NCBI GenBank assembly: GCA_903852815.1
Contig: CAINRW010000019.1
Location: forward strand, 1-52,280
Origin: an uncultured Actinomycetes bacterium
Lineage (GTDB): Bacteria > Actinomycetota > Actinomycetes > Nanopelagicales > Nanopelagicaceae
Reading direction: 5' to 3'
Length of the DNA: 52,280 nucleotides
The position numbers and the translations under genes are program-made. How positions within the stretch are numbered: position 1 is the stretch's first letter; each line of letters begins with the position of its first letter. The notes below the pieces were generated by a model. It searched no databases. It was not told where the DNA came from and saw only the letters and a list, made by a program, of their open reading frames with translations. Shown here one piece after another: positions 40,070 to 42,216 of this stretch.

Positions 40070-41509
40070 ATGCGTAGAGCGAAAATTGTGTGCACCATGG
40101 GTCCAGCTGTTGAGTCACCTGAAAAAGTTAAGGAACTCATCGATGCGGGAATGAATATGGCCCGTTTGAATCTTTCTCATGGATCCTATGAAGAGCATCA
40201 GGGTCGTCTCGATCGCGTTCGTGCGGCGGCAAAAGAGGCAGGCCGTCCAGTTGCAATTTTGGTCGATCTGCAGGGACCAAAAATTCGTTTGGCTCGTTTT
40301 GCTGCTGGCCCACATGATTTAGCTCGCGGCGATATTTTTACAATCACAACTGATGAAGTTGAAGGCACAAAAGAACGCGTTGGTACTACGTACAAAGGGT
40401 TACCAGGAGATTGCAAAGCCGGAGATCGTATTTTGATCGATGATGGAAAAGTTACTGTTGAAGTAATTGAAGTCAAAGGAAATGACGTAGTAACTAAAGT
40501 TATTGAACCTGGCGCAGTGAGCAATAACAAAGGCATAAACCTTCCAGGTGTAGCCGTATCTGTTCCAGCGCTTTCTGAAAAAGATATCGATGACTTGCGC
40601 TGGGGATTGCGCGCCGGTGCAGATTTCATCGCGCTCTCATTTGTGCGAAGCGCTGAAGACATCAAAGATGTTCACAAAATCATGGATGAAGAAGGTTTCC
40701 GAGTTCCAGTAATTGCGAAAATTGAAAAGCCGCAAGCCGTTGAAAATCTTGTTGGAATTGTGGAAGCCTTCGATGGCATCATGGTTGCTCGCGGTGATCT
40801 CGGTGTTGAACTTCCAAATGAAGATGTTCCACTAGTTCAAAAAATGTGTGTTGAGCTAGCTCGCGATATGGCAAAGCCAGTAATTGTTGCGACTCAAATG
40901 CTTGATTCAATGATTACCAATTCTCGTCCAACACGCGCCGAGGCAACAGATTGTGCAAATGCTGTTCTCGATGGTGCAGATGCATTGATGCTCTCAGGTG
41001 AAACAAGTGTGGGAGATTTTGCAATTGAAGCCGTACAAACAATGGCGCGCATTATTCAGAAAACTGAAGAAGGCGGACTCGATCGAATTCGCCCAATTAA
41101 AACTGCTCCACGCACGAAAGGTGGCGCAATTACTAAGGCGGCCACTGAAGTTGGCGCAATTCTTGGCGCTAAGTACTTAGTTGCATTTACTCAAAGCGGT
41201 GACTCGGCCCGTCGAATGTCGCGTCTGCGCTCACCAATTCCAATTCTTGCAATGACTCCAGAATCTGGAACGTACAACCGTCTTGCACTTTCATGGGGTG
41301 TGGAGTCAATGCTTACTCCAGTTGTCGGTGCAACTGACGAGATGGTCAAATTAGTAGATAAGTCATTACTTGATTCAGGTCGCGCACATACTGGCGATGA
41401 AGTCATAATCGTGGCTGGCTCGCCTCCAGGAATTCCTGGTTCAACCAATGCCATGCGCGTTCATCGCGTTGGCGACGCAGTTGCTGGCGTAGCAGCGGCT
41501 TACCGCTAA
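40070..41509 (+). CDS. pyk: Pyruvate kinase
   Basis: Pyruvate kinase converts phosphoenolpyruvate and ADP to pyruvate and ATP. The 479-residue product has KIVCTMGPA at the N terminus, MARLNLSHGSYEEH, DLQGPKIRL, the active-site signature VIAKIEKPQAVENL with the catalytic Lys, MVARGDLGVELP and KPVIVATQMLDSM, followed by the C-terminal domain. Length is that of ordinary actinobacterial enzymes. It lies 9 bp after gltD. Codon use leans slightly more to AAG/ATC-type codons than the mur genes, compatible with high expression. Confidence 0.97.
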   Translation: MRRAKIVCTMGPAVESPEKVKELIDAGMNMARLNLSHGSYEEHQGRLDRVRAAAKEAGRPVAILVDLQGPKIRLARFAAGPHDLARGDIFTITTDEVEGTKERVGTTYKGLPGDCKAGDRILIDDGKVTVEVIEVKGNDVVTKVIEPGAVSNNKGINLPGVAVSVPALSEKDIDDLRWGLRAGADFIALSFVRSAEDIKDVHKIMDEEGFRVPVIAKIEKPQAVENLVGIVEAFDGIMVARGDLGVELPNEDVPLVQKMCVELARDMAKPVIVATQMLDSMITNSRPTRAEATDCANAVLDGADALMLSGETSVGDFAIEAVQTMARIIQKTEEGGLDRIRPIKTAPRTKGGAITKAATEVGAILGAKYLVAFTQSGDSARRMSRLRSPIPILAMTPESGTYNRLALSWGVESMLTPVVGATDEMVKLVDKSLLDSGRAHTGDEVIIVAGSPPGIPGSTNAMRVHRVGDAVAGVAAAYR

Positions 41510-41533: not shown

Positions 41534-41606
41534 GCCTCGGTACTCCAACGGTAGAGAGGGCAGTCTCAAACACTGCATAGTGTCGGTTCGAATCCGACTC
41601 GGGGCA
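41534..41606 (+). tRNA. tRNA with CAA anticodon (Leu by code) but class I structure
   Basis: Acceptor GCCTCGG (41534-41540) pairs with TCGGGGC (41599-41605), with two G-U pairs, and A73 follows. The D arm has a 3-bp stem (CTC/GAG) and GG in the loop. The anticodon stem GCAGT/ACTGC is perfect, with loop CTCAAAC and anticodon CAA at 41567-41569. The variable loop has only 5 nt (ATAGT), then the T arm GTCGG-TTCGAAT-CCGAC. CCA is not encoded. Leucine tRNAs normally have a long variable arm, so identity is uncertain although A73 fits leucine. It lies between pyk and the ANTAR regulator. Confidence 0.85.
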
Positions 41607-41640
41607 CGCACGTTAGGCATCCTGGAAGGATGAATAAAAC

Positions 41641-42216
41641 ATGGGTGTTCGCATTCTGGTTGCTGAGGATGAAGCACTTATCCGCATGGATCTTGTCGAA
41701 ATGTTGCAAGGTGCAGGTTATGAAGTAGTTGCCCAAGCCAGCAATGGGCAAGAGGCGATTGAACTAACTAAAGAACATAAACCAGATTTAGCAATTCTCG
41801 ATGTCAAGATGCCGGTTCTGGATGGAATTTCAGCGGCAGAGCAGATTATTGAACTTGCTCCCGTGCTTATGTTGACCGCATTTTCACAAAGAGAGTTAAT
41901 TGATCGAGCTCGCGATGCTGGCGTCATGGCTTACGTTGTTAAACCTTTCACAATTGGCGACTTAGTTCCTGCAATTGAAATCGCCATAAGTCGTCACACC
42001 CAGATGAAATCATTGGCTGAAGAAGTTGCTGATTTGCATGAGCGACTTGAAACGCGCAAAGTCATTGATCGAGCCAAAGGTATTTTGATGAAAGCTCTCA
42101 ATCTCTCGGAGCCAGAAGCTTTTTCCTGGATTCAACGAGCGGCCATGGATCGCCGGCTCACCATGAAGCAAGTGGCTCAGGCCGTCATTAGTCCGGACGC
42201 CGTACCTGAGCACTGA
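41641..42216 (+). CDS. pdtaR: ANTAR-domain response regulator (PdtaR type)
   Basis: The 191-residue protein has an N-terminal receiver domain with acidic pocket EDE (9-11), phospho-acceptor Asp54 (AILDVKMP), Thr79 and Lys101, and a C-terminal ANTAR RNA-binding domain (about 125-185; RKVIDRAKGILMKALNLSE and the AAMDRRLTMKQVA signature). ANTAR regulators bind paired RNA stem-loops to affect termination or translation. The architecture equals mycobacterial PdtaR (Rv1626), partner of a PdtaS kinase; that kinase is not in the window. GGAAGGA lies 10 nt before the ATG. It sits upstream of the liv genes, as the equivalent gene does in Streptomyces. Targets are not evident. Confidence 0.93.
   Translation: MGVRILVAEDEALIRMDLVEMLQGAGYEVVAQASNGQEAIELTKEHKPDLAILDVKMPVLDGISAAEQIIELAPVLMLTAFSQRELIDRARDAGVMAYVVKPFTIGDLVPAIEIAISRHTQMKSLAEEVADLHERLETRKVIDRAKGILMKALNLSEPEAFSWIQRAAMDRRLTMKQVAQAVISPDAVPEH

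Follow-up and report, generated by a model that had tools for sequence, protein, structure and literature searches.

A leucine tRNA gene without the long variable arm, kept beside a pdtaR-like regulator gene in Actinomycetota

According to textbooks, every bacterial leucine tRNA carries a long extra arm. In actinomycetes, the decoding of UUA and UUG is regulatory, as known from bldA. A 2023 review describes the long arm as universal outside animal mitochondria. The determinants of leucine identity are A73, A15-U48, G18G19, and A20a, with A14 acting together with A73 in a mitochondrial comparison, and the sequence and folding of the long arm are unimportant in E. coli (PMC9976931). In the open-licence literature we found no bacterial tRNA-Leu of class I described; such a paper could have appeared in a subscription journal. 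The original prediction presupposed class II for all bacterial tRNA-Leu, which does not hold for Actinomycetota, as described here.

The window, i.e., the whole 52,280-nt stretch of DNA analyzed, comes from an uncultured member of the Nanopelagicaceae whose assembly (G000) amounts to 1.63 Mb in 149 contigs. ARAGORN calls a tRNA-Leu(CAA) at 41534-41607, and exactly 41534-41606 matches the Rfam tRNA family (RF00005) with 52.1 bits, against a cut-off of 29. The gene and its surroundings are composed as follows.

40070..41509, + strand: pyk (pyruvate kinase), the upstream neighbor; an open reading frame whose stop lies 24 nt before the tRNA, co-conserved in the genus and in several families
41534..41606, + strand: class I tRNA-Leu(CAA) gene, 73 nt, CCA unencoded (ARAGORN, Rfam RF00005, conserved family)
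41534..41540, + strand: 5' strand of the acceptor stem, GCCUCGG, forming 7 bp with 41599-41605 (Rfam alignment; covariation of helix 1)
41543..41558, + strand: D arm with the leucine-type loop AAC-GG-UAGA (A14, A15, G18, G19, A20a; comparison with the tRNAs recovered from the genome)
41567..41569, + strand: anticodon CAA, reading UUG (ARAGORN)
41577..41581, + strand: variable loop AUAGU, 5 nt (class I), with U48 at its end (Rfam alignment; parsed loci)
41582..41598, + strand: T arm GUCGG-UUCGAAU-CCGAC with a 5-bp stem (Rfam alignment; covariation)
41606..41606, + strand: discriminator A73 (A73 in 196 of 196 parsed class I loci)
41641..42216, + strand: pdtaR-like ANTAR response regulator, 34 nt downstream of the tRNA (open reading frame, tblastn neighbors), marking the conserved tRNA-Leu(CAA) locus

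We take the product of 41641..42216 to be PdtaR-like from the original prediction and from knowledge of the family. The D stem of the tRNA counts 3 bp (10-12/23-25, with 13/22 mismatched) and the anticodon stem 5 bp, closing a CUCAAAC loop. The whole is a four-arm cloverleaf with a variable loop in the 4- to 5-nt range of class I, lacking the stem-loop of at least 10 nt that defines class II. This loop measures 5 nt in all 196 parsed class I loci. A73 was imposed by no search pattern, while U48 is built into the pattern, so that its invariance is not independent. The class I body with a CAA anticodon, 5-nt variable loop, and A73 first proposed from the letters is thus borne out by ARAGORN and by the Rfam score, and the counter-case raised with it, an ordinary tRNA read in another anticodon register, was tested and not encountered.

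The conservation of this structure is far beyond chance. In an alignment of 42 sequences, 98.7% of the cells are paired (100% in the acceptor helix), against 34-54% when the strands are slid, and both sides have changed in 17 of 20 pairs, the changes being compensatory across the phylum. The tRNA is 96-100% identical in 32 genomes of its genus; in other families, its homologues retain the 5-nt loop at 75-88% identity. Among the matches listed, the identical tRNA and gene order recur in Candidatus Planktophila and other Nanopelagicales records.

The window tRNA is a member of a phylum-wide family of short-armed tRNA-Leu, with CAA or UAA anticodons, in Actinomycetota. Of 242 good Actinomycetota genomes, at least 61 matched a pattern that requires a UAA/CAA anticodon to lie at class I distance from the T loop, a lower bound because Mycobacterium genes with GAGTTC (e.g., that of G127) escape it, and the reversed control pattern matched none. 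When named genomes were scanned, 119 of the 120 matched stretches belonged to Actinomycetota, among the matches listed. The families in which one or both UUR-reading leucine tRNAs lack the long arm include Streptomyces, Mycobacterium, Micromonospora, Bifidobacterium, and the freshwater Nanopelagicales.

Several other matches deserve a brief record. Extra class I tRNA-Leu(CAA) genes lie in arrays of 6-13 tRNA genes (L139, L162, and L207, one of them from a contig recorded under a Xanthobacteraceae metagenome-assembled genome), possibly phage or plasmid tRNA arrays. A 46-nt pattern match, TCAAA...GGCGGGTTCGATTCC, is a tRNA-Sec by its own sequence and was set aside; another, on a Bacillus plasmid, is a tRNA-Trp. 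The class I tRNA-Leu(UAA) at L273 (G134) is read by ARAGORN as tRNA-Phe(AAA), one register off, which shows how class I tRNA-Leu genes can be misnamed. Near a contig end of the source assembly, a 31.3-bit tRNA match for which ARAGORN makes no call (L065, G000 C38:4420-4497) is possibly a tRNA remnant.

The complete, single-contig genome of a relative from the same genus (G014) bears on the decoding role of this tRNA. Its leucine tRNAs are UAG and GAG of class II and UAA and CAA of class I, with no others, and the window's own assembly has the same set. Counting the leucine tRNAs, a check proposed with the original prediction, revealed no other CAA tRNA, hence no class II CAA alongside class I, and no class II UAA tRNA in G014; this leaves class I tRNAs as the only readers of UUA and UUG codons. 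UUA is readable there only by the class I UAA tRNA; for UUG, the UAA tRNA could serve as a second reader beside the CAA tRNA. Among 64 genomes, none combines the two classes for one anticodon; each anticodon is represented either by class I or by class II. UUR makes up 117 of the 238 leucine codons (49%) in four genes of the window. Where homologues from other families agree at 90% or more, the UUA and UUG codons of the window genes fall on leucine columns in 12 of 12 cases (4 UUA, 8 UUG).

The tRNA possesses the full set of leucine elements, namely, A73, A14, A15-U48, G18G19, and A20a. Among class I genes, A15 and A73 occur in 128/128, A14 in 126/128, and A20a in 124/128, and the same elements are found in 26 class II leucine tRNAs. 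Each of 12 genomes contains one LeuRS gene above the cut-off. We propose that LeuRS most likely charges the tRNA through A73 and a tertiary core (A14, A15-U48, G18-G19, A20a) that would be common to class II leucine tRNAs, bacterial LeuRS presumably having no need of the long variable arm, whose absence should also keep SerRS away. Together with the class I tRNA-Leu(UAA), whose gene lies at another place in the genome, the presumably expressed CAA tRNA would then supply all UUA/UUG decoding in the genus. Outside these elements the two forms do differ, with A9 and C13 in class I versus G9 and G13 in class II; given these differences, their cores might not be the same.

Within the genus, the tRNA stays between pyk and pdtaR, at a spacing of 34 nt to the latter. 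That it would be kept at this locus in other actinobacteria had been guessed from the window alone, and indeed pdtaR adjoins 107 of 118 class I CAA loci among the matches listed in the named-genome sample. The same place is also held by class II tRNA-Leu(CAA) in several families. In one genus, g19, which the pdtaR tree assigns to Streptomycetaceae, the class II form of G179 and the class I form of G054 occupy the same position, and G248, which is class II, groups with class I rows of Micromonosporaceae. Over the 134 rows of this tree, class II rows are scattered, with 12 changes by parsimony and at least 7 class switches, of whichever direction, forced by strongly supported branches; the marker is short and the sampling favors class I. 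A parallel exists for UAA, for which G107 (class II) and G097 (class I), members of one family, agree in the position of a pyk-like gene. Across Actinomycetota, the CAA gene occupies a fixed place beside pdtaR, where class I and class II have repeatedly replaced one another. Since the forms differ beyond the arm (A9/C13 versus G9/G13), replacement of the whole gene appears likelier than simple loss of the arm.

Phages may offer one route for such replacements. In phage Baka of cluster J, the integrase is flanked by an attP that corresponds to the 3' half of a class I tRNA-Leu(CAA). Its exact 45 nt recur in the Mycobacterium-type genus (61 of 248 genomes), lying within the class I gene beside pdtaR in 5 of the 6 loci read. 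PMC10865867 reports that cluster J phages use attB-11, a site overlapping the tRNA-Leu-CAA of M. smegmatis, for integration. From the phage attP and related genomes, we infer that this host tRNA is class I. The paper further reports that phage Gaia integrates at tRNA-Leu-CAA without rebuilding the gene and carries a tRNA-Leu-CAA of its own; we find the latter to be 83 nt long, with the long arm of class II, a class difference from the host tRNA that goes unremarked in the excerpted text. Since related mycobacteria have a class I gene at the locus that Gaia disrupts, and Gaia brings a class II gene, the class II tRNA appears to replace class I in living lysogens.

Two Mycobacterium-type genomes contain the CAA 3' half in duplicate, with a separation of about 10.6 kb (G319 C34:162553 and 173184; G513 C492:125407 and 136072, L292), one of the two copies in G513 being without its 5' half. 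The duplicated halves probably represent an integrated element that uses the tRNA as its attachment site. With Pfam, no integrase gene was detected between the tRNA and a displaced pdtaR at L221, L233, L243, and L248, nor around the half-copy L292, and phage-driven swapping at these loci is accordingly conjectural. On a Tsukamurella tyrosinosolvens plasmid, a class I tRNA-Leu(CAA) (L084:1501-1577) lies near a pdtaR-like response regulator and adjoins a site-specific integrase at 1590-2780. Class I-length tRNA-Leu genes with anticodons GAG, CAA, UAG, AAG, and UAA are also present in phages of Mycobacterium, Pseudomonas, Erwinia, Lactobacillus, and Prochlorococcus (L078, L079, L080, L081, and L082), hosts mostly outside Actinomycetota; such short phage genes are annotated in GenBank records without comment. 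It is tempting to extend the argument and see class I and class II tRNA-Leu as freely interchangeable alleles of one Actinomycetota locus, swapped by integrating phages carrying the other class, as with Gaia, the choice being under selection, e.g., for escape from tRNA-cutting toxins or phage-defence nucleases specific to one form; we consider this generalization rather unlikely.

The original prediction had considered an unusual leucine tRNA, a tRNA charged by another synthetase, and a regulatory tRNA-like RNA. The first option is now strongly supported by the class I pair as sole readers of UUA and UUG, by the 12 of 12 leucine columns, and by the identity set. That the tRNA has another identity (e.g., derived from a Trp, Ala, Arg, or Asn tRNA) and mistranslates or reassigns UUG is suggested by its class I body and by U8-A9 and C13, which resemble those of the genome's ordinary class I tRNAs. 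Against this, all eight UUG codons at conserved columns fall on leucine, A73 is absolute, and the combination of A14, A15-U48, an 8-nt segment after GG containing A20a, and A73 is confined to leucine tRNAs among the tRNAs recovered from this genome. Furthermore, a class II tRNA-Leu(CAA) holds the same place in relatives and, following PMC10865867, in Gaia lysogens. We therefore judge charging by another synthetase to be very improbable.

The adjacency to pdtaR, conserved across families and with its 34-nt spacing in the genus, could also be taken to indicate a regulatory RNA, such as a cis element or a target of the neighboring ANTAR regulator. A fixed cis position upstream of the regulated gene is not what the loci display, since the tRNA is divergent from pdtaR in 93 of 154 class I cases, and in most families. 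All arms covary as in a tRNA, Rfam matched nothing but the tRNA over the window, and the class I UAA partner loci read gave no pdtaR match. With the class II gene at the same place and the mostly divergent orientation, the neighborhood reflects gene order, not a regulatory leader, and is best read as old gene order combined with a favored integration site. The regulatory option thus goes unsupported and is, in our estimate, slighter still than that of a foreign identity. tRNA genes are common integration scars, and the doubled 3' halves, one of them without its 5' half, could evoke a decayed or mobile-element remnant without function. Decay had been named as a possible counter-case from the start; it is at odds with the 96-100% identity in 32 genomes, with the 98.7% of paired cells and their compensatory changes, and with the complete relative G014, which has no other CAA and no class II UAA tRNA, and we give it the least credence of all. 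We hold with high confidence that 41534-41606 encodes a functional, UUG-reading class I tRNA-Leu, presumably charged by LeuRS, which together with its UAA partner performs all UUA/UUG decoding in the genus, and that the two classes have been swapped beside pdtaR.

This family represents a natural experiment on leucine identity and fits the in vitro activity of E. coli tRNA-Leu variants without the arm. Comparing sister species with different classes at a single locus makes the real purpose of the arm testable. Annotation is concerned as well, since genes of this type may be misjudged by isotype models or tRNA-seq pipelines that presuppose a long leucine arm.

Compared with bldA of Streptomyces, the anticodons, A73, A14, A15-U48, A20a, and the 3-bp D stem are common to both forms, as is, for CAA only, the chromosomal locus beside pdtaR; the class I form differs in lacking the long variable arm and in having A9 and C13 in place of G9 and G13. 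Animal mitochondrial tRNA-Leu(UUR) likewise has no long arm and is recognized via A73 and A14 (PMC9976931), whereas the actinobacterial form is a full, stable cloverleaf in free-living bacteria, with class II leucine isoacceptors alongside and apparently the same LeuRS. A known tRNA-Met-derived class I tRNA bears the same leucine CAA anticodon on a class I body, but it is a recent copy with barely detectable expression, while the actinobacterial tRNA keeps its leucine identity elements throughout the phylum. Finally, the class I tRNA-Leu genes of phages Bonray, phiEa21-4, and P-SSM7 share a leucine anticodon, a length of 73-78 nt (ARAGORN), and a similar sequence; these are accessory genes with varied anticodons, whereas the chromosomal form is the only copy and sits at a fixed locus.
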